The translations under genes and the position numbers were made by a program. Below, piece after piece: positions 37,896 through 60,535 of a DNA stretch of 64,000 bases. Origin of the DNA: Aquipuribacter nitratireducens (GTDB taxonomy: Bacteria; Actinomycetota; Actinomycetes; Actinomycetales; JBBAYJ01). Every line of letters begins with the position of its first letter. The first letter of the stretch is position 1. Location: NCBI RefSeq assembly GCF_037860835.1, contig NZ_JBBEOG010000001.1, forward strand, positions 434,001-498,000, written 5' to 3'. The notes beneath the pieces are model-generated. The model was given only the letters and a program-made list of their open reading frames with translations. It had not been told where the DNA came from and did no database searches.

Positions 37896-38363
37896 ATGGC
37901 GAAGCAGGACAGGCCCGCCGAGCACGCGCTGAAGGTCCACCACCTGCGCCCCGCGCCGGGCGCGCACACCGCCAAGACGCGCGTCGGTCGCGGTGAGGCG
38001 AGCAAGGGCAAGACCGCCGGGCGCGGCACCAAGGGCACGAAGGCCCGCTACCAGGTCCCGGAGCGCTTCGAGGGCGGGCAGACCCCGCTCCACATGCGCC
38101 TGCCGAAGCTGCGCGGGTTCACCAACCGGTTCCGCACGGAGTACCAGGTCGTCAACCTGGACCGCCTGCAGGAGCTCTACCCCGAGGGCGGCACGGTGAC
38201 CCCGGTCGACCTCGTGAAGCGGGGTGCCGTCCGCGACGGCGCGCCCGTCAAGGTGCTCGGCACCGGCGACGTCACCGTCGCCCTCCAGGTGTCGGCGCAC
38301 AAGTTCTCGGCGTCCGCCGCGAGCAAGATCGAGGCGGCAGGCGGGACCACCACCACCGTCTGA
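37896..38363 (+). CDS. rplO: 50S ribosomal protein L15
   Basis: The 155-residue late-assembly protein has [20 protein letters not shown] then [16 protein letters not shown] and [17 protein letters not shown] 37896 is preferred because GGAGGT (37881-37886) is 9 nt before it; GTG 37890, overlapping the rpmD stop, would be only 3 nt away. The stop codon lies in a 12-bp tandem repeat, so TGA occurs three times in frame. Confidence 0.97.
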
Positions 38364-38387
38364 CACACCGTCTGACACACCGTCTGA
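38354..38387 (+). repeat. 12-bp tandem repeat carrying three in-frame stop codons of rplO
   Basis: CACCGTCTGACA is repeated from 38354 to 38365 and 38366 to 38377, with a third copy to 38387. The unit length is a multiple of three, so TGA recurs in the rplO frame at 38361, 38373 and 38385. The duplication is likely by replication slippage. Confidence 0.9.
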
Positions 38388-38444
38388 TCGGCGTGACCGC
38401 CCGTCGAGGGCGGGTCGCGGCCGCCCGCGCGGCCGGCTGACCAC

Positions 38445-38480
38445 CACCAGGACCGGGGCCTCGGCCCCGGTCCTGGTGTT
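38445..38480 (+). terminator. Terminator after rplO
   Basis: CACCAGGACCGGGGCC and its complement form a 15-16 bp stem closed by a CTCG turn, followed by TTAG. It lies 82 bp after rplO and ends the spc ribosomal-protein run before secY. Confidence 0.8.
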
Positions 38481-38485
38481 AGGGT
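38477..38485 (+). promoter_or_regulatory. Possible extended -10 promoter for secY
   Basis: TGTTAGGGT fits an extended -10 (TG, one base, TAGGGT). It overlaps the foot of the rplO terminator and lies 83 bp before the secY start. No -35 box is recognisable. Confidence 0.4.
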
Positions 38486-38567
38486 CGCGGGCACGAGGCG
38501 GGTCGCTGCGGTGCACCGGCCAGCCGTCCGTGCCCCTCTCGGGGGCCTAGCAGGAGGTACATCCGTC

Positions 38568-39878
38568 GTGGTCAGCCTCGGCGCGTTCATCAGCGCGTTC
38601 AAGACCCCCGACCTGCGCGCGAAGATCCTGTTCACGCTCGGGATCATGGCGATCTTCCGGCTCGGGTCGTTCATCCCGACCCCCGGTGTCGACTTCGGCA
38701 ACGTCCGGGAGTGCCTCGCGCTCGCCGAGACCCAGGGCGGCGTCTTCGGCCTCATCAACCTCTTCAGCGGGGGCGCGCTGCTGCAGCTGTCGATCTTCGC
38801 GCTGGGGATCCTCCCCTACATCACGGCGAGCATCATCGTGCAGCTGCTCACGGTCGTGATCCCGCGCTTCGAGGAGCTGAAGAAGGAGGGGCAGACGGGC
38901 ACGGCGAAGCTCACGCAGTACACCCGCTACCTCACCATCGGCCTCGCGATCCTCCAGTCCACGACGTTCGTCACCCTGGCCCGCACCAACGCCATCTTCG
39001 GCGGCGCGTGCGACCCGGCCGCGTTCCCCACCATCCCGGACCAGAGCGTGCCGGTGCTGCTCCTCATGATCCTCACGATGACGGCCGGCACCGGGCTCAT
39101 CATGTGGCTCGGCGAGCTCATCACCGCCCGTGGCGTCGGCAACGGCATGTCGCTGCTGATCTTCACCTCCATCGCCGCGACCTTCCCCAGCTCGCTGTGG
39201 AACATCGCCCAGCAGCAGTCCTTCGAGACGATGCTGCTCGTCATCGCGATCGGCCTCGTCATCGTCGCCGCGGTCGTCTTCGTCGAGCAGAGCCAGCGCC
39301 GCATCCCCGTGCAGTACGCGAAGCGGATGGTGGGCCAGCGGGCCTACGGCGGCACGAGCACCTACATCCCGCTCAAGGTCAACATGGCCGGCGTCATCCC
39401 GGTCATCTTCGCGAGCTCGCTGCTGTACCTCCCGGCGCTCATCGCGCAGTTCTCGCCGGAGTCGACGTGGGCGGGCTGGATCAACACGTACTTCGCGACC
39501 GGCGACCACCCCATCTACATGGCGGTCTACTTCGGGCTCATCATCTTCTTCGCGTTCTTCTACGTCGCCATCACGTTCAACCCCGACGACGTGGCGGAGA
39601 ACATGCGCAAGTACGGCGGGTTCATCCCGGGGATCCGCGCCGGGCGGCCGACGGCGGAGTACCTCGACTACGTCATCACGCGCATCACGTTCCCCGGGGC
39701 GATCTACCTCGGCGTGGTCGCCCTCATCCCGCTGGTCGCGATCGTCCTCGTCGACGCCAACCAGAACTTCCCCTTCGGTGGCGCGTCGATCCTCATCGTC
39801 GTCGGCGTCGGGCTCGAGACGGTCAAGCAGATCCAGTCCCAGCTCCAGCAGCGCAACTACGAAGGGTTCCTTCGATGA
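38568..39878 (+). CDS. secY: Preprotein translocase subunit SecY
   Basis: The 436-residue channel subunit of SecYEG has ten membrane segments. The plug/TM2 region (GLINLFSGGALLQLSIFALG), TASIIVQLLTVVIPRFEELK, the TM4-5 loop QTGTAKLTQYTRYLT and the conserved cytoplasmic QSQRRIPVQYAKRMVGQR are all present. GTG 38568 is chosen from AGGAGGT 9 nt upstream. Its stop overlaps adk by 4 bp. Confidence 0.97.
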   Translation: MVSLGAFISAFKTPDLRAKILFTLGIMAIFRLGSFIPTPGVDFGNVRECLALAETQGGVFGLINLFSGGALLQLSIFALGILPYITASIIVQLLTVVIPRFEELKKEGQTGTAKLTQYTRYLTIGLAILQSTTFVTLARTNAIFGGACDPAAFPTIPDQSVPVLLLMILTMTAGTGLIMWLGELITARGVGNGMSLLIFTSIAATFPSSLWNIAQQQSFETMLLVIAIGLVIVAAVVFVEQSQRRIPVQYAKRMVGQRAYGGTSTYIPLKVNMAGVIPVIFASSLLYLPALIAQFSPESTWAGWINTYFATGDHPIYMAVYFGLIIFFAFFYVAITFNPDDVAENMRKYGGFIPGIRAGRPTAEYLDYVITRITFPGAIYLGVVALIPLVAIVLVDANQNFPFGGASILIVVGVGLETVKQIQSQLQQRNYEGFLR

Positions 39879-40447
39879 CGCGACTCGTCCTCCTCGGACC
39901 GCCCGGCGCGGGCAAGGGCACGCAGGCGGCCCGGCTGGCCGCCACGCTCGGGGTGCCGGCCATCTCGACCGGCGACATCTTCCGGCGCAACGTCGCCGAC
40001 GGCACCGAGCTCGGTGTCACTGCGAAGCGGTACATGGACGCGGGGGAGTACGTCCCCGACTCGGTGACGAACGCGATGGTCGCCGACCGGCTCGCCGAGC
40101 CCGACGCCTCCGACGGGTTCCTGCTCGACGGCTACCCGCGTACCGCCGAGCAGGTCGAGGAGCTCGACCGCATGCTCGCAGCGCAGGACGCTCGGCTCGA
40201 CCACGTCGTCGAGCTGACCGCCGACACCGACGAGGTCGTCCAGCGGCTGCTCAAGCGGGCCCAGGAGCAGGGCCGCAGCGACGACACCGAGGACGTCGTC
40301 CGCCGGCGGCTGGAGGTCTACGCCGAGCAGACGGCACCGCTCGCCGCCGTCTACGAGCGGCGCGACCTGCTCGTCCGCGTCGACGGCATGGGCGAGGTGG
40401 ACGAGGTCACCGCCCGCCTGCTCGACGCCATCGGCGTCTCCGTCTGA
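39875..40447 (+). CDS. adk: Adenylate kinase
   Basis: The 190-residue enzyme interconverts ATP + AMP and 2 ADP. It has the P-loop GPPGAGKGTQAARLA (8-22), AMP-binding STGDIFRRN, DGYPRT and the nucleotide-binding RRRLEVY. The LID is of the short type without zinc cysteines, which is usual in actinobacteria. ATG 39875 overlaps the secY stop (ATGA). Confidence 0.97.
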   Translation: MTRLVLLGPPGAGKGTQAARLAATLGVPAISTGDIFRRNVADGTELGVTAKRYMDAGEYVPDSVTNAMVADRLAEPDASDGFLLDGYPRTAEQVEELDRMLAAQDARLDHVVELTADTDEVVQRLLKRAQEQGRSDDTEDVVRRRLEVYAEQTAPLAAVYERRDLLVRVDGMGEVDEVTARLLDAIGVSV

Positions 40448-40461
40448 CCCGCCCCTCGCTC

Positions 40462-41319
40462 GTGTTCGGCCGGGAGCGCATCGAGTACAAGACCGTCGCG
40501 CAGGTCCGCACCATGCGCCGCGCGGGTCTCGTGGTCGCCGCGGCGCTCGACGCGGTCCGTGCAGCGGTGCGTCCCGGTGTGACGACGGCGGAGCTCGACG
40601 AGGTCGCGGCGCGGGTCATCGCCGACGCCGGGGCGACGTCGAACTTCCTCGGCTACCACGGCTACCCCCGGACGGTGTGCTCGTCCGTCGACGACGAGGT
40701 GGTCCACGGCATCCCGGGGGACCGGGTGCTGCGGCCCGGGCAGCTGGTGAGCGTCGACTGCGGCGCGGTGGTCGACGGCTGGCACGGTGACGCGGCGTTC
40801 TCCGTGCTCGTGCCCGACGTCGACGGTTCCGACGTCTCGTCCGCCGCGGACCGCGCCCTCGTCGCCGCCACCGAGGAGTCCCTGTGGCGGGGGATCGCCG
40901 CGCTGCGCGTGGGGGAGCCCGTCGCGCGCGTCGGGGAGGCGGTCGACGACTTCGTCACCCACGAGTGCGACGGGCGCTACGGGCTCGTGGAGGAGTACAC
41001 AGGACACGGCATCGGCACCGCCATGCACCAGCCGCCGGAGGTGCTCAACTACCGCGCCGGTGGTCGCTCGCCGCGCGTGAGGGCCGGGCTGTGCGTCGCC
41101 GTCGAGCCGATGCTGACGGCCGGCTCGGCCGCGACCCGACTGCTCGACGACGGCTGGACCGTCGTGACGGCCGACGGGTCCAGGGCGGCGCACGTGGAGC
41201 ACTCCGTCGCGGTGCTGGCGGACGGTCTCTTCGTGCTCACCGCCCCCGACGGAGGGCGTGCCCGGCTGGAGGCGATGGGCGTGCGGGTCTCCGACGCCGT
41301 GGAGCCGGCCGCCGCCTGA
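40462..41319 (+). CDS. map: Methionine aminopeptidase, type I
   Basis: The 285-residue M24 metallopeptidase removes the initiator methionine. The metal ligands are visible: the aspartates in VDCGAVVDGWHGDAAF, the histidine in YTGHGIGTAMH, and the glutamates in VAVEPMLTAG and AHVEHSVAV. The NFLGYHGYPRTVCSSVDDEV region lines the substrate pocket. GTG 40462 starts 14 bp after adk without a clear ribosome site; the protein then begins VFGRERIEYKT, matching relatives. Confidence 0.95.
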   Translation: MFGRERIEYKTVAQVRTMRRAGLVVAAALDAVRAAVRPGVTTAELDEVAARVIADAGATSNFLGYHGYPRTVCSSVDDEVVHGIPGDRVLRPGQLVSVDCGAVVDGWHGDAAFSVLVPDVDGSDVSSAADRALVAATEESLWRGIAALRVGEPVARVGEAVDDFVTHECDGRYGLVEEYTGHGIGTAMHQPPEVLNYRAGGRSPRVRAGLCVAVEPMLTAGSAATRLLDDGWTVVTADGSRAAHVEHSVAVLADGLFVLTAPDGGRARLEAMGVRVSDAVEPAAA

Positions 41320-41655
41320 CGTCGGCACAAGCGCTGTCACCTGGACGGCGCAACCGCGCAGAATCACCCGAAGGGCACAGCGGTGGCTGTGCGTATCGCC
41401 AGGGATGCGTCGAGTGTCCGGAAGGTGACGCGCCGTCGTGGCCTCGCCGTCGGTTCATGACAGGGCGACGTCCTGTGACTACCGGGGGTGTGACCGCTCA
41501 CCCGACCGGCGCAGCCGGCGTGACGACGTGGCAGGTGAGAGCCGTGAGGACTCGTGGTCACAGGGCGGTCGCCCGTATTGACACCTCGGGGCCGTGCTGG
41601 TGCGCTGTGCCCGACGCGACCGCGTCGTCCCTGCGCCCATCCCGGAGGTCCCGCC
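41320..41655 (+). promoter_or_regulatory. Gene-free 336-bp leader region of the repeat protein gene
   Basis: No credible ORF or known riboswitch was found. A 7-bp perfect hairpin (GCACAGC/GCTGTGC, 41375-41392) may end the map transcript. TTGACA at 41578-41583 is a perfect -35 element, 72 bp before the ribosome site, but the sequence 17-18 bp later (TGCGCT) is a poor -10. TGTGAC occurs at 41474 and 41489, 15 bp apart, with GTCACA near 41557; these could bind a regulator. Confidence 0.4.
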
Positions 41656-42057
41656 GTGCTGTTCCGACTGCGCTCCCGCGTCCTGACACTGTCCGCCGTC
41701 CTGCTCGCCGCCCTGCTCGGTGGTGTCCTCACCACGACCGCGTCCGCCTCCGCGGCCACCGGCGCCGCGCCCGCCGTCGCGGCGAAGTCGTGGCTGCCGT
41801 ACAAGAGCTGGCTGCCGTACGAGTCGGGTGTGGCGGCGAAGTCGTGGCTGCCGTACGAGTCGGGTGTGGCGGCGAAGTCGTGGCTGCCGTACAAGAGCTG
41901 GCTGCCGTACGAGTCGGGTGTGGCGGCGAAGTCGTGGCTGCCGTACAAGAGCTGGCTGCCGTACGAGTCCGGTGTCGCCGCGAAGTCGTGGCTGCCGTAC
42001 AAGAGCTGGCTCCCGTACTCGACGACGAGCAGCAGCAAGTACGTGCGCGCCGTCTGA
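41656..42057 (+). CDS. Secreted protein of tandem KSWLPY / ESGVAA hexapeptides, no family recognised
   Basis: The 133-residue protein starts at GTG 41656, 6 nt after a perfect GGAGGT. A Sec signal peptide is clear: basic start (RLRSR), hydrophobic core (about 9-25) and cleavage after ASA at residue 33. After a short Ala-rich linker, residues 44-121 consist of exactly 13 hexapeptides: nine KSWLPY and four ESGVAA, arranged KK-E, K-E, KK-E, KK-E, KK. A 12-residue Ser/Thr-rich tail with KYVRAV follows. There is no cysteine, membrane anchor, LPXTG or dibasic cleavage site. The mature part is basic and aromatic, suggesting cell-wall or membrane binding, self-assembly or a precursor of small peptides; none is shown. 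It is monocistronic, with a terminator 11 bp after the stop. Confidence 0.85.
   Translation: MLFRLRSRVLTLSAVLLAALLGGVLTTTASASAATGAAPAVAAKSWLPYKSWLPYESGVAAKSWLPYESGVAAKSWLPYKSWLPYESGVAAKSWLPYKSWLPYESGVAAKSWLPYKSWLPYSTTSSSKYVRAV
41785..42018 (+). repeat. In-frame 18-bp / 54-bp coding tandem repeat
   Basis: Thirteen 18-bp units lie end to end. In paired KSWLPY units the first uses TCG for serine and the second AGC, so the basic block is 54 bp (KSWLPY-TCG, KSWLPY-AGC, ESGVAA). The second block (41839-41874) lacks the AGC unit. Synonymous changes are seen only in the last ESGVAA (41965-41982) and the last KSWLPY (42001-42018), so the inner copies look recently duplicated. Confidence 0.95.
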
Positions 42058-42068
42058 CGTCCCCGGTG

Positions 42069-42104
42069 ACGGTGCCCCCGCCCTGCCAGGGACGGGGGCG
42101 CCGT
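42069..42104 (+). terminator. Terminator after the repeat protein gene
   Basis: ACGGTGCCCCCG (42069-42080) pairs with CGGGGGCGCCGT (42093-42104) over 12 bp with one G-U pair; the loop has extra CCCT/AGGG pairing. It lies 11 bp after the stop. Confidence 0.75.
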
Positions 42105-42173
42105 CCTGTTCGAGCACCTCCGGTGCAGTCGTCGTGGTCGTGATCGGCGCCGACCTGGCCGGTCCCGGCTGAT

Positions 42174-42202
42174 TTCGGCATCCGGGCGCTATGCCGTAGG
42201 AT
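42174..42202 (+). promoter_or_regulatory. Promoter of infA-rpmJ-rpsMKD
   Basis: TTCGGC (42174-42179) and TAGGAT (42197-42202) are 17 bp apart, about 150 bp before infA. Confidence 0.5.
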
Positions 42203-42284
42203 CGCCGTTTGGCACACGGCTTCAACGTCCCGTTCGCCCCCGCGGCTGGTCTGGGTGGACGGGACTCGTCACGCGTGGGCTCGG

Positions 42285-42303
42285 TGCGCACCGCCGGTGC
42301 GCA
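42285..42303 (+). other. Hairpin in the infA leader
   Basis: TGCGCACC and GGTGCGCA form a perfect 8-bp stem with a 3-nt loop, 48 bp before infA in the untranslated leader. Function is unknown. Confidence 0.4.
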
Positions 42304-42351
42304 GCAACTGTCGGAGGCTCCCCCGAGGAGCGCGTAGGGATAGCGGAGGAC

Positions 42352-42573
42352 ATGCCGAAGAAGGACGGGGTCATCGAGATCGAGGGCAGCGTGGTCGAAG
42401 CCCTCCCCAACGCCATGTTCCGCGTCGAGCTGGAGAACGGGCACAAGGTGCTCGCGCACATCTCCGGGAAGATGCGGCAGCACTACATCCGGATCCTCCC
42501 GGAGGACCGCGTGGTGGTGGAGCTCAGCCCGTACGACCTGTCCCGCGGACGCATCGTCTACCGCTACAAGTGA
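42352..42573 (+). CDS. infA: Translation initiation factor IF-1
   Basis: The 73-residue OB-fold protein occupies the A site during initiation. The sequence [20 protein letters not shown] and [20 protein letters not shown] match the family closely. ATG 42352 follows GCGGAGGAC. Confidence 0.98.
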
Positions 42574-42616
42574 CGGCACGCCTCTGCGAGGGGCTGTGTC
42601 GCCAGGGAGTCCATCG

Positions 42617-42730
42617 ATGAAGGTCAAGCCCAGCGTCAAGAAGATCTGCGACAACTGCAAGGTGATCCGCCGTCACGGCCGGGTCATGGTCATCTGCACC
42701 AACCTGCGCCACAAGCAGCGCCAGGGCTGA
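42617..42730 (+). CDS. rpmJ: 50S ribosomal protein L36
   Basis: The 37-residue protein reads [20 protein letters not shown] and continues [17 protein letters not shown]. The three cysteines and the histidine of NLRH form the zinc site of the C+ form. It lies 43 bp after infA, its standard place. Confidence 0.97.
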
Positions 42731-42895
42731 GCAGCTCCGACCACCTGCACCACCACCCCTGCGGTGCCCGACCCCGGGACGGCGTGAGCACGCCGGACCG
42801 GACGACACCCCCGGACGAGGGCCGGGGACCCGCGAGAGACGCTCGCGGGACAGGCAGCCGCGCAGACCCTCGTGCACCGAGAGGCACCACCACCC

Positions 42896-43276
42896 ATGGC
42901 ACGTCTTGTCGGCGTCGACCTGCCCCGTGAGAAGCGGGTCGAGATCGCCCTCACCTACGTCTTCGGCATCGGGCGCACCCGGTCGACGGAGACCCTCGCG
43001 GCCACCGGCATCGGGTCGGACGTCCGCGTGAAGGACCTCACCGAGGAGCAGCTCGTCGCGCTCCGCGACCACATCGAGGCCAACTACCGCGTCGAGGGCG
43101 ACCTGCGGCGCGAGGTGGCCGCCGACATCCGCCGCAAGGTCGAGATCGGCAGCTACGAGGGGCTGCGCCACCGCCGCCACCTCCCGGTCCGCGGCCAGCG
43201 CACCAAGACCAACGCCCGCACCCGCAAGGGTCCGAAGCGGACCGTCGCCGGCAAGAAGAAGGTCGGCAAGAAGTGA
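42896..43276 (+). CDS. rpsM: 30S ribosomal protein S13
   Basis: The 126-residue S13 forms intersubunit bridges in the 30S head. It begins [20 protein letters not shown] and has [20 protein letters not shown] and a lysine-rich tail reaching the P site. ATG 42896 lies 165 bp after rpmJ; that gap holds no gene. Confidence 0.98.
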
Positions 43277-43332
43277 GCCGGCGCGCTCACGACACCGCCA
43301 TCCGGACCGTCTGACCAGGAGAGACCAGCCGC

Positions 43333-43740
43333 ATGCCCCCCAAGACCCGAGCCGCGTCCGCGGCGCGCAAGCCGCGCCGCAAGGAGCGGAAGAACGTCGC
43401 CGCCGGCGTCGCGCACATCAAGAGCACCTTCAACAACACCATCGTGTCGATCACCGACCCGGGCGGCGCCGTCATCGCGTGGGCGTCCGCCGGCCAGGTC
43501 GGCTACAAGGGCTCCCGCAAGTCGACGCCCTTCGCCGCGCAGCTCGCCGCCGAGGCCGCCGCGCGCCGTGCCCAGGAGCACGGCATGAAGAAGGTCGACG
43601 TCCTCGTCAAGGGTCCCGGCTCCGGCCGCGAGACCGCCATCCGCTCCCTGACCGCCGCGGGGCTGGAGATCGGTTCGATCTCCGACGTGACGCCGCAGCC
43701 GCACAACGGCTGCCGTCCGCCCAAGCGTCGTCGCGTCTGA
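43333..43740 (+). CDS. rpsK: 30S ribosomal protein S11
   Basis: The 135-residue platform protein has [38 protein letters not shown] and the C-terminal [21 protein letters not shown] 43333 is 56 bp after rpsM. Confidence 0.98.
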
Positions 43741-43770
43741 GCGCCCGAGCCGAGAAGGAGAGACCGACAC

Positions 43771-44397
43771 ATGGCTCGTTACACCGGCGCTGACTGCAAG
43801 CGCTGCCGCCGCGAGAAGACCAAGCTCTTCCTCAAGGGCGCCAAGTGCGACTCGCCGAAGTGCCCCATCGAGATCCGGCCCTACCCCCCGGGCGAGCACG
43901 GCCGTGCCCGCACCAAGGAGTCGGAGTACCTCCTGCAGATGCGGGAGAAGCAGAAGATGGCGCGCATCTACGGCGTCCTCGAGAAGCAGTTCCGCAACTA
44001 CTACGAGGAGGCGAACCGCCAGTCGGGCAAGACGGGTGACAACCTGCTGCGCCTGCTGGAGGCCCGCCTCGACAACGTCGTGTACCGGGCCGGCTTCGCC
44101 AAGTCCCGCGACATGGCCCGTCAGCTCGTCAAGCACGGCCACTTCACGGTGAACGGCCGCAAGGTCGACATCCCGTCGTTCCAGGTGAGCGAGAACGACA
44201 TCATCGAGGTCCGCAAGACGTCGGTGGAGCTCACCCCGTTCGTCGTGGCGCGCGCCGAGGCCGGCGAGAAGACCGTTCCGGCGTGGCTCGAGGCCATCCC
44301 GAACAAGATGCAGGTCCTCGTCCACGGCCTGCCCCAGCGGCAGGTCATCGACACCCAGGTGCAGGAGCAGCTGGTCGTCGAGCTGTACTCGAAGTGA
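43771..44397 (+). CDS. rpsD: 30S ribosomal protein S4
   Basis: The 208-residue S4 is a primary 16S binder. The N-terminus contains four cysteines (CKRC and CDSPKC, residues 9, 12, 26 and 31), so it is the zinc-binding form. The S4 RNA-binding domain lies in RLDNVVYRAGFAKSRDMARQ and VKHGHFTVNGRKVDIPS. A strong terminator follows 5 bp after the stop. Confidence 0.98.
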   Translation: MARYTGADCKRCRREKTKLFLKGAKCDSPKCPIEIRPYPPGEHGRARTKESEYLLQMREKQKMARIYGVLEKQFRNYYEEANRQSGKTGDNLLRLLEARLDNVVYRAGFAKSRDMARQLVKHGHFTVNGRKVDIPSFQVSENDIIEVRKTSVELTPFVVARAEAGEKTVPAWLEAIPNKMQVLVHGLPQRQVIDTQVQEQLVVELYSK

Positions 44398-44402
44398 CGC
44401 AC

Positions 44403-44436
44403 CGGGACCGTGCCGCCCTCGGGCGGCACGGTCCCG
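44403..44436 (+). terminator. Terminator after rpsD
   Basis: CGGGACCGTGCCGCCC and its complement form a 15-16 bp perfect stem closed by CTCG. It partly separates infA-rpsD from rpoA-rplQ. Confidence 0.8.
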
Positions 44437-44564
44437 ACGCACGTCGGCCGTCGCGGGCAGGGCACCCCGCGGCACCAGGCCCGTCGACCCGGTGGACGGA
44501 TACCGGGACGACCTGCCCGTCGCGAGGCGTCAAATAGCGGTCGCCCGCGGGAAGGACACCTGAA

Positions 44565-45620
44565 GTGCTCATCGCACAGCGCCCCACCCTCACCGAGGAG
44601 AGCGTCGACACCGCCCGGTCCCGGTTCGTCATCGAGCCGCTGGAGCCCGGCTTCGGCTACACCCTCGGCAACAGCCTCCGCCGGACCCTGCTGTCGTCCA
44701 TCCCCGGCGCGGCGGTCACCAGCATCCGCATCGACGGCGTGCTCCACGAGTTCTCGACGGTCGCGGGCGTCAAGGAGGACGTCACCGAGATCATCCTCAA
44801 CCTCAAGGAGCTCGTCGTCTCGAGCGAGTTCGACGAGCCGGTCGTCATGTACCTGCGCAAGCAGGGCCCCGGTCTCGTCACCGCGGCAGACATCGCGCCG
44901 CCCGCGGGCGTCGAGGTCCACAACCCGGAACTCGTCATCGCGACCCTCAACGAGAAGGGGAAGCTCGAGATCGAGTTCACGGTCGAGCGCGGCCGCGGCT
45001 ACGTCTCCGCCTCGCAGAACAAGAGCGGCGACTCCGAGATCGGCCGCATCCCGGTCGACTCCATCTACTCGCCGGTGCGGCGCGTGACGTACAAGGTCGA
45101 GGCGACCCGCGTCGAGCAGCGCACCGACTTCGACCGCCTCGTGGTCGACGTCGAGACGAAGAGCTCGATCAGCCCCCGCGACGCCATGGCGAGCGCGGGC
45201 CGGACTCTCACCGAGCTGTTCGGTCTCGCCCGGGAGCTCAACGTCGAGGCCGAGGGCATCGACATCGGTCCCAGCCCGAACGACGCGGCGCTCGCCGCGG
45301 ACCTCGCGCTGCCGATCGAGGAGCTCGACCTCACGGTCCGCTCGTACAACTGCCTCAAGCGCGAGGGCATCCACTCGGTGGGTGAGCTCGTCGGCCGCAG
45401 CGAGGCCGACCTCCTCGACATCCGCAACTTCGGCGCGAAGTCGATCGACGAGGTCAAGGCCAAGCTCGCCGGGCTCGGTCTGCAGCTGAAGGACAGCCCG
45501 CCCGGGTTCGACCCGGCCGTGGCGCTGGCCAGCTACAGCGAGGACGGCGTGAACGACGACCCGTTCTCGACCGCCGGCTACGACGACGACCGTTCTGCCG
45601 TCGAGGACGAGCAGCTCTGA
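44565..45620 (+). CDS. rpoA: DNA-directed RNA polymerase subunit alpha
   Basis: The 351-residue subunit has the dimerising N-terminal domain ([36 protein letters not shown]) and the C-terminal domain that contacts UP elements and activators ([10 protein letters not shown]-like stretch, [20 protein letters not shown]). An acidic 35-residue tail follows. GTG 44565 lies behind GGGAAGGACACC. The leader since the rpsD terminator is about 130 nt with no clear promoter. Confidence 0.97.
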
Positions 45621-45686
45621 CCCAGCGCCCGGGGCGCACCGACCCCGCGCCGGGGTGACCGGCGCGAGAACCACGAGGAGAACGAC

Positions 45687-46352
45687 ATGCCCACGCCCAC
45701 CAAGGGCCCGCGTCTCGGCGGCGGACCGGCGCACGAGCGGCTGATGCTCGCCGGCCTGGCGACGTCGCTGTTCGAGCACCGCCGGATCACCACGACCGAG
45801 GCCAAGGCCAAGCGGCTGCGCCCGCTCGCCGAGCGCATGGTGACCTTCGCCAAGCGGGGGGACCTCCACGCCCGGCGCCGGGTCATGACGGTCATCCGCG
45901 ACAAGAGCGTCGTGCACGCCCTCTTCACCGAGATCGCCCCGCTCGTCGCGGAGCGTCCCGGCGGCTACACGCGCATCACGAAGGTCGGTCCGCGCAAGGG
46001 CGACAACGCCCCCATGGCGGTCATCGAGCTCGTCCTGGAGCCGTACAGCCCGAAGGTCGCGACGGTGAAGGAGGCGGAGGCCGCCACGAAGCGGTCCGCC
46101 GCCACTGCGCCGGCCGCGGCGCAGAGCGAGCCGGCCGCGGAGGCCGAGGCCGCCGCCACCGACGCGGTCGAGGCCGCGGCCGAGGGCGACGCGGACGCGG
46201 CGGTCGAGGCCGCCGCCGAGGCCGAGGGTGCCGCGGAGAAGGCCGAGGCCGAGGGTGCCGTCGACGCCGACGAGGCGAAGGCGGACGCCGAGGTCGCCGA
46301 CGAGATGGCGCAGGACGCCGTCGACGAGAAGGCCGCCGACGAGAAGGCCTGA
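45687..46352 (+). CDS. rplQ: 50S ribosomal protein L17 with Ala/Glu-rich C-terminal extension
   Basis: The core of about 120 residues matches L17 at the tunnel exit ([60 protein letters not shown]). About 100 further residues are almost only Ala, Glu, Asp, Val and Lys and appear unstructured. Such tails occur in actinobacteria, though this one is long. ATG 45687 follows CGAGGAG. A hairpin follows the stop. Confidence 0.96.
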
Positions 46353-59081: not shown

Positions 59082-60535
59082 GGGGCGCCTCCGGCGGCCG
59101 CGACCACGGTCCCCTCGGCGCCCTCGGACGCGTCGGTCACCGGGTCGGGGGAGTCCTCGAGGTCCTCCGGCAGGAGCGCCCGGAGCTCGTCACGGGACGG
59201 CTCGGTGACGTCGCGCAGCCGCCACGCGTGACGCCCGATGGCCCCTTCCAGGCAGTTGCGCGCGAAGCGGCCGTTGCCGAAGCCCGGGCCGCGGGGCGTC
59301 TCGGCGAGCAGGCGGCGGAACCGCGCGAGGCACGCGTCCGTCGGCTCGAAGTCGGCCTTGTCCGCGAGCAGCCGGAAGATCTCGACGAGCTCGTCGTCCG
59401 TGTAGTCGTCGAAGTGGACCGTCGTCCGGAACCGGCTGTCGAGGCCGGGGTTGGACCGGATGAGCTCGGCCATCGGCACGGGGTAGCCCGCCACGACCAC
59501 GACGAGCGACTCGCGGTGGTCCTCCATGAGCTTCACGAGGGCGTCGACGGCCTCCTCGCCGTAGTCGTCGCCGGCGAGGGAGTACGCCTCGTCGACGAAG
59601 AGGACGCCGTCGAGGGCGGTGCGCGTGACCTCGGCGGTGCGCGCGGCGGTCTGGCCGAGGTAGCCCGCGACGAGGTCGGACCGGTCGACCTCGACCAGGT
59701 GGCCCCGCTCGAGCAGCCCGAGCGCCCGGTAGATGCGGGCGACGAGCCGGGCGACCGTCGTCTTGCCCGTCCCCGGGTTGCCGGTGAAGACGAGGTGGCG
59801 CGTGATGGTCGGGTTCGCGAGCCCCTGCTCGGCGCGCAGCCGCTGCACGCGCAGCACCGCTGCCTGCCGGTGGACCTCCCGCTTCACGGCGGTGAGCCCC
59901 ACGAGCGCGTCGAGCTCGGCGAGCAGGTCCTCGACGCTGTCGTGCCCCTCGACCTCGACCTCGACCTCGACCTCGACCTCGCCCTCGTCCTCGCCCTTGG
60001 CGACCGGAGCAGGGGACGGGCCCGTCGTGGCGGGTACGACGGGTGTGGTGGTCGCGCTCGTCGTGTCCGGTGCGCTCGTCGTGTCCGGTGCGCCCGGCCG
60101 TCCCGGCGCCTGACGCGGGGGGACGGCCGGTGCCGCCGCCGGGCCCCGCGCCGCGGCGAGCTGCGCGGCGGCGGCCACCGAGGCGTTGCCGAGCGCCCGC
60201 AGCATCGGCTCGCCGAGCCCGCACGCCGCCGAGGCCACCCGCGACAGCGCCGCCGCGTAGTCGCCCGCACCCTGGGAGCGCTCGACCACGAGGCGGTCGA
60301 GCAGGTGGGTGGGGGAGGCCCGCCAGCGCCCGCCCCTGGCGACGGCCGCCTCCCACCCGCCGGCGCCGCCCACGGCGCTCGCCCAGTCCGCCGCCGCCCC
60401 GGGGGAGTCGGCGGCGACGCCCGCGGCGAGGGCCGCGCCCTCGTCCCGCGCGGCTGCGACGTCCACGCCCACCGCGGTGGCGACGGCCGCCAGACCGTCG
60501 AGCGCGGCGGCGAGCTCGTGCGGTCCCCGGCTCAC
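59078..60535 (-). CDS. CbbX/SpoVK-type AAA ATPase
   Basis: The 485-residue protein has a helical N-terminal region of about 130 residues, a low-complexity linker with an APDTTS repeat and a strictly alternating EVEVEVEVEVE tract, and a C-terminal AAA+ domain: GNPGTGKTTVARLVARIY (Walker A), GVLFVDEAYSLAG (Walker B) and SRFRTTVHFDDY (arginine finger region). AAA proteins of this type are remodelling ATPases (CbbX, EccA). It is co-translated with glnX and the small hypothetical gene. Its target is unknown. Confidence 0.85.
   Translation of the reverse strand: MSRGPHELAAALDGLAAVATAVGVDVAAARDEGAALAAGVAADSPGAAADWASAVGGAGGWEAAVARGGRWRASPTHLLDRLVVERSQGAGDYAAALSRVASAACGLGEPMLRALGNASVAAAAQLAAARGPAAAPAVPPRQAPGRPGAPDTTSAPDTTSATTTPVVPATTGPSPAPVAKGEDEGEVEVEVEVEVEGHDSVEDLLAELDALVGLTAVKREVHRQAAVLRVQRLRAEQGLANPTITRHLVFTGNPGTGKTTVARLVARIYRALGLLERGHLVEVDRSDLVAGYLGQTAARTAEVTRTALDGVLFVDEAYSLAGDDYGEEAVDALVKLMEDHRESLVVVVAGYPVPMAELIRSNPGLDSRFRTTVHFDDYTDDELVEIFRLLADKADFEPTDACLARFRRLLAETPRGPGFGNGRFARNCLEGAIGRHAWRLRDVTEPSRDELRALLPEDLEDSPDPVTDASEGAEGTVVAAAGGAP
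59948..59982 (-). repeat. Hexanucleotide microsatellite encoding (EV)n in the AAA gene
   Basis: CTCGAC is repeated five times plus a partial copy. Read on the minus strand it gives alternating Glu-Val. Unit length keeps the frame, so length changes would alter only the linker. Confidence 0.9.
60054..60089 (-). repeat. 18-bp tandem duplication in the AAA gene linker
   Basis: GCGCTCGTCGTGTCCGGT occurs twice in tandem and encodes APDTTS twice on the minus strand, directly next to the (EV)n tract. Confidence 0.9.

Follow-up and report, generated by a model that had tools for sequence, protein, structure and literature searches.

Between map and infA, the genome of Aquipuribacter nitratireducens carries a gene whose product is a predicted signal peptide followed by thirteen exact hexapeptides. 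Judged by comparison, this is a real, working gene, since both other species of the genus examined carry it directly after map, its promoter is kept and its signal-peptide region is constrained about as strongly as map itself. On the genomes examined it is, by the same kind of evidence, a genus-core and genus-restricted orphan, as it occupies the same place in three of three species and no homologue was found outside the genus. As a type the protein is ordinary, a secreted repetitive orphan, and its composition is unusually pure. Of the three functions offered in a preliminary description of this DNA (a peptide precursor, a wall- or membrane-binding polymer and a self-assembling surface material), we tentatively rank the material first.

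The gene, its product and its control region

The window, meaning the whole stretch of 64,000 nucleotides analysed here, carries the gene at positions 41656..42057 of the forward strand, on which the other features of the gene region also lie. It begins with GTG, encodes 133 amino acids, is present as a single copy and has homologues in all three genomes of the genus, hereafter G000 (the window genome), G001 and G002. The GTG at 41656 is likely the start codon, because the open frame of G002 holds no earlier ATG, GTG or TTG and a conserved promoter lies just upstream. The first 33 codons (41656..41754) specify a putative signal peptide, recognised by eye and conserved in the three species, with a positively charged n-region, a hydrophobic core and a probable cleavage site after ASA (residue 33); a short linker then leads to the array. 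These features argue for an exported protein, and the secretion proposed in the preliminary description is borne out at that level, along with its coordinates, reading frame, unit counts and by-eye signal peptide.

The array (41785..42018) consists of nine KSWLPY (K) and four ESGVAA (E) units, following one another without a break as K K E K E K K E K K E K K. It accounts for the top three scores (336, 287 and 278) in a tandem-repeat scan of the window, and when its 78 residues were shuffled 10,000 times no hexapeptide was counted more than twice, against nine observed. Behind it stands a tail, STTSSSKYVRAV (42019..42054); in every species the tail combines a Ser/Ala/Thr-rich linker with a terminal aromatic-x-R-A-[VR]. 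The mature chain is free of cysteine, as had been claimed, and so are those of the two homologues. By eye, none of the three proteins has a sortase-type C-terminal hydrophobic segment with a sorting motif, and a lipobox cysteine is also absent.

Upstream of the gene, the three species keep a common arrangement: the invariant box GGTCACAG (41556..41563 in the window), 13 nt, ATTGACA, 17 nt and TGC[GC]CT, with the start codon 49, 51 or 42 nt further. In the window, the presumed promoter thus reads TTGACA, a 17-nt spacer and TGCGCT (41578..41606), and a Shine-Dalgarno sequence, GGAGGT, stands at 41644..41649. A consensus scan of 41320-42360 returned no sigma-70 promoter and no terminator, the presumed promoter being missed because its second hexamer is unlike TATAAT. 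Across the three genomes, the pattern GGTCACA-N12-16-TTGACA occurs at this promoter only, plus one other site in G001, and the backward control of the same pattern gave zero matches. The conserved promoter and the ribosome site agree with the earlier view that the gene is probably expressed. The terminator reported with it stands in part: a strong G+C-rich hairpin follows the stop codon (42064..42108; -44.5 kcal/mol and z -2.8 for 42040-42120), but it lacks a T-run and the terminator scan was silent, which leaves it a possible terminator.

The box may point to a regulator. Together with a GGT three nucleotides further on (GGTCACAG-NNN-GGT), it has, by eye and in the three species, an 11-bp period like that of MtrA direct repeats, its second half fitting weakly; these repeats are given as cG[TA]nA[CT]c with an 11-bp period in PMC6265350, and GTCACAgcg is cited in PMC2945938. 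Regulation by an MtrA-type factor for envelope or division may be considered, as a weak lead. It is kept as a lead only because NlpC/P60 and Rpf genes show no enrichment of exact GGTCACA in their vicinity: it was found in 4 of 20 such loci of the genus, which may not cover every promoter of those genes, and this is roughly the number expected from the window rate of 0.078 per kb. Further upstream, at 41474-41496, TGTGACTACCGGGGGTGTGACCG contains two GTGAC boxes 15 bp apart; it is common to the window and G001 and absent from G002.

Conservation within the genus and searches beyond it

Among 59 genomes searched, strong matches were confined to the own genome, G001 (E 3e-45) and G002 (E 3e-36); with the limit set at E 1, 39 of the 59 gave a match of some kind, the best outside the genus reaching 0.002. 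A search with the signal-peptide consensus recovered exactly one gene in each of the three genus genomes. The G001 protein holds 18 SWLPY cores, 17 preceded by K and one by R, and 10 EAGVAE spacers, and the C-terminal edge of its array is degenerate (AGGLPY, SWLSA). The G002 protein holds 29 SYLPY cores, with 15 KSYLPY in an unbroken run, and three EAGTAA spacers. What is conserved is therefore an S-aromatic-L-P-Y core, mostly with Lys between cores, while the spacers differ among small and acidic residues. The number of cores varies about three-fold (9, 18 and 29) with the frame kept, and the core aromatic is uniform within each species, being W in 9/9 and 18/18 cores of G000 and G001 and Y in 29/29 of G002.

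The array could be a chance repeat frame or a decaying simple-sequence expansion without function. A variable array length, one decayed edge in G001, the restriction to a single genus and an array pN/pS of 0.61 (G000-G001) could all be read in this way. Against it, frame, signal peptide, promoter and tail are kept in 3/3 species, and the signal-peptide region has a pN/pS close to that of map: 0.29 versus 0.30 between G000 and G001, and 0.42-0.45 versus 0.35-0.40 in the comparisons with G002. The preliminary description had named frameshifted repeats in homologues as one sign of a chance frame; none was seen, both homologues keeping their frames. We regard a functionless repeat as very improbable.

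The array itself says less about constraint on the protein. Its pS between G000 and G001 is 0.18 over 33.8 sites, against 0.46 for the signal-peptide region and 0.40 for map, so homogenisation or codon preference acts on it, and the ratio of 0.61 by itself is no sign of strong protein constraint. Exact interior units with one decayed edge are the pattern expected from unequal crossing-over. Codon variants within the arrays show a synonymous excess over expectation in four of six sets at P < 0.05 (P = 0.039, 0.026, 0.36, 0.0003, 0.019 and 0.079), which is weak evidence, as the search pattern let only the first residue of a core unit vary and passed over the degenerate edge units of G001. That three species have retained the complete layout is the stronger argument for a working gene.

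In a draw of 396 genomes from the order, an array profile had matches with an E-value of 1e-4 or lower in 7, namely the three of the genus and four weak ones. The latter, read in all frames, were rejected as six-periodic repeats of another kind, since no frame of at least 40 residues held as many as three LPY or S[WY]L. In a draw of 394 genomes from the class, which overlaps with the former, the own genome was the sole match. None of the pattern stretches found in a collection of genome contigs (596 by protein scan, 30 by array-alignment scan) or in viral contigs (14) was confirmed, and these collections may omit near relatives of the window. Matches in three phage and 12 plasmid records, at 30-46% identity, were taken as unrelated six-periodic repeats, the region having been inspected in one of these 15 records (H12, a Streptomyces plasmid).

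Searches of curated families agree with the earlier statement that no family could be recognised. Pfam gave nothing above curated cut-offs for the three proteins (E up to 10, and 1), the best match being Drf_FH1 for G002 at E 2.2e-5; NCBIfam (two of the three proteins) and PDB sequences gave no matches, and neither PADLOC nor PHROGs matched the window protein. The relatives did match PHROGs families of unknown function, G001 with phrog_1995 (E 1.3e-5) and phrog_31248 (4.2e-4), and G002 with phrog_31248 (2.6e-7), matches that we suspect stem from repeat composition. In the literature searched, the word KSWLPY was absent and no title or abstract opened on such a protein.

The map-infA interval

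In the window, infA is the next gene, 294 nt past the repeat gene, and the preliminary description saw the latter as sitting alone in a conserved block and hence as an accessory insertion. The presence of the gene at the same place in 3/3 species of the genus speaks against an accessory insertion. Its solitude is true of the window, but in both relatives an acidic open reading frame and a TPR-CHAT gene follow. In G001, the acidic frame (48 aa; locus L046, 8649-8795) and a TPR-CHAT protein of 793 residues (L046, 8876-11257), which matches Pfam PF12770, stand in this order between the repeat gene and infA. This CHAT protein also has a faint match, far under the cut-off, to type III-E Csx29. In G002, the acidic frame (42 aa; L047, 9639-9767) lies 3' of the repeat gene, a CHAT gene starts at L047 10214 and runs to the contig end, and the end of a second contig (L083) carries the rest of a CHAT protein ahead of infA, which fits the G001 order if the two contigs adjoin. 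Neither acidic frame has a Pfam match. About five direct repeats of 51-52 bp, apparently non-coding, occupy L047 9889-10175 between the acidic frame and the CHAT gene.

The acidic frame and the CHAT gene are absent from this place in the window species, whose nearest CHAT protein is encoded on another contig with 36% identity. A diverged CHAT-type protein was noted at the end of contig C8 of this genome (L082, 4750-6405), with an MmpL-type transporter-like neighbour recognised by eye. The repeats, together with a map identity of 80.5% between G000 and G001 versus 78.0% and 77.0% for the other pairs, weakly suggest that G000 and G001 are sisters; if so, the pair of genes would have been lost in the window species. 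Apart from its position, we see no reason to link the CHAT gene product with the exported repeats.

The interval was compared more widely by means of infA, found in 39/39 genomes; the comparison used 30 loci, of which 27 belong to other genera, and nine infA matches had no locus to include. Among the 27, the distance from the end of map to infA was 127-499 nt in 17 and 1309 nt in one, and map was not found within 1.5 kb of infA in nine. The KSWLPY-type pattern that the preliminary description had proposed to look for in the map-infA intervals of relatives did not turn up: S[WYF]LPY occurs in the 1.5 kb upstream of infA at 0/27 of these loci. A protein with four LGYPV repeats, encoded upstream of infA in a genome from another family of the order (L065 in G024), is, by eye, of the LGFP-repeat kind and was set aside as unrelated.

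Two other repetitive features were seen in the window. A gene at 45687-46352, by eye that of the L17 ribosomal protein, has a long, repetitive Ala/Glu/Asp-rich C-terminal extension (repeat at 46140-46349), and a 6-bp unit, CCTCGA, is present in 8.5 copies at 59947-59997.

Possible functions of the repeat protein

The mature chains are exceptionally aromatic. They contain 19 aromatic residues out of 99 in G000, 39 out of 216 in G001 and 60 out of 219 in G002 (18-27%), whereas 31 other putative coding frames of the window have a median of 4.5% and reach 10.3% at most. In the same order, the net charges are +7, -3 and +22; charge is thus not kept, which makes a simple polycation glue unlikely. 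AlphaFold2, run on the single sequence without alignment, predicted no fold (mean pLDDT 48.9, pTM 0.10), an outcome that fits a disordered chain but is also frequent for sequences run without an alignment.

The reading that we prefer, while granting it somewhat less than even confidence, is that of an exported, disordered sticker-and-spacer polymer acting as a cohesive coat or matrix protein. After Sec export and cleavage of the signal peptide, the chain would remain unfolded. Its aromatic residues and lysines would act as stickers through aromatic and cation-pi contacts, and the E[SA]G[VT]A[AE] blocks would provide flexible spacing. Condensation on or between cells would then give the envelope or matrix a cohesive coat or a cement. 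The polymer would work like mussel foot protein 1, with DOPA not implied.

We hold this reading the most likely because the species keep their aromatic, Pro and Leu residues at constant intervals, as a sticker-and-spacer polymer would, and because mussel foot protein 1 offers a precedent: according to PMC7018715, recombinant mfp-1 with 12 or 22 repeats of the AKPSYPPTYK type undergoes phase separation through pi-cation contacts. The change from W to Y in all cores would likewise preserve the sticker chemistry. The high aromatic content, spacers that change only among small and acidic residues, the lack of a predicted fold, variation of array length without loss of frame and the conserved promoter were also counted in favour of the polymer. 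With the mussel-type DOPA adhesive proteins, the repeat protein shares secretion (here by sequence) and short tandem units in which Lys, Tyr, Ser and Pro abound; it differs in its six-residue unit with Leu and Trp, its shorter length and its bacterial origin, and there is no sign of shared ancestry. Against the polymer, the interior units are exact, which is stricter than expected of a pure material protein, and no wall anchor can be recognised. The genus genomes yielded neither a tyrosinase (PF00264, 0/3; its control was also silent in 14 genomes) nor a lysyl oxidase (0/3; its control search was also silent).

The same exactness could reflect a multi-copy precursor, cut at lysines, tyrosines or spacers to release S(W/Y)LPY signal or antimicrobial peptides. 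SYLPY may resemble proline-rich antimicrobial peptides. In G002, K is missing before each of the four cores placed at the start or behind a spacer, so that the protein reads SYLPY-K-SYLPY-K and K may serve to join units without belonging to them; moreover, the cores switch in concert per species, with W in two and Y in one. However, cores after a spacer do carry K in G000 and G001 (R once), G002 has 15 contiguous KSYLPY without a spacer, and exact units can also be obtained by unequal crossing-over, the C-terminal edge of the G001 array being degenerate. By eye, no dedicated protease or modifying enzyme was recognised among the open reading frames of window 38000-46000, and the neighbour map encodes a housekeeping methionine aminopeptidase. 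A bacterial RiPP with modifying enzymes alongside was set aside after this reading by eye. A multi-copy precursor, the main rival of the polymer, seems rather unlikely to us.

Its closest parallel would be the fungal Kex2-processed repeat proteins (KEPs), among them ustiloxin-type precursors and alpha-mating factors, where, according to PMC7329392, a signal peptide precedes many near-identical short units that are processed by Kex2. The layout is shared with our protein, which differs in being bacterial and in having only single Lys between units, the dibasic KR, RR or KK sites being absent from all three proteins. A bacterial counterpart of KEPs, namely a Sec-exported precursor with a species-specific W/Y code for an intercellular signal or an antimicrobial peptide, is graded as improbable. 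PMC7329392 also describes Rep1 of Ustilago maydis, a repetitive secreted precursor of water-repellent peptides with a role as surface material; the likeness to our protein is one of description, and Kex2 cleavage belongs to Rep1.

Each S[WY]LPY could alternatively be a ligand motif for a wall glycan, a teichoic acid, a lipid headgroup or a partner domain, the array providing avidity. The five-residue core is indeed what the species keep, and the aromatic-x-R-A tail is kept behind variable linkers. The unit is nevertheless without a match to solved structures or curated families and, by eye, no partner gene was recognised beside the repeat gene in the window; we consider such wall or membrane binding unlikely. 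The six-residue period also recalls hexapeptide-repeat left-handed beta-helix proteins, from which the present protein departs by the Pro in every core, at odds with the consensus of that family, and by the lack of a Pfam Hexapep match for any of the three proteins.

Should the precursor reading be true, these genes would represent a bacterial secreted multi-unit peptide system, with a layout that PMC7329392 describes from fungi. As a sticker-and-spacer polymer, the protein would be a natural, minimal and genetically encoded example of this class in a bacterium. The three species, whose proteins vary in length and charge, in how often spacers occur and in whether Trp or Tyr is the sticker, would then form a comparative series for the workings of such polymers.
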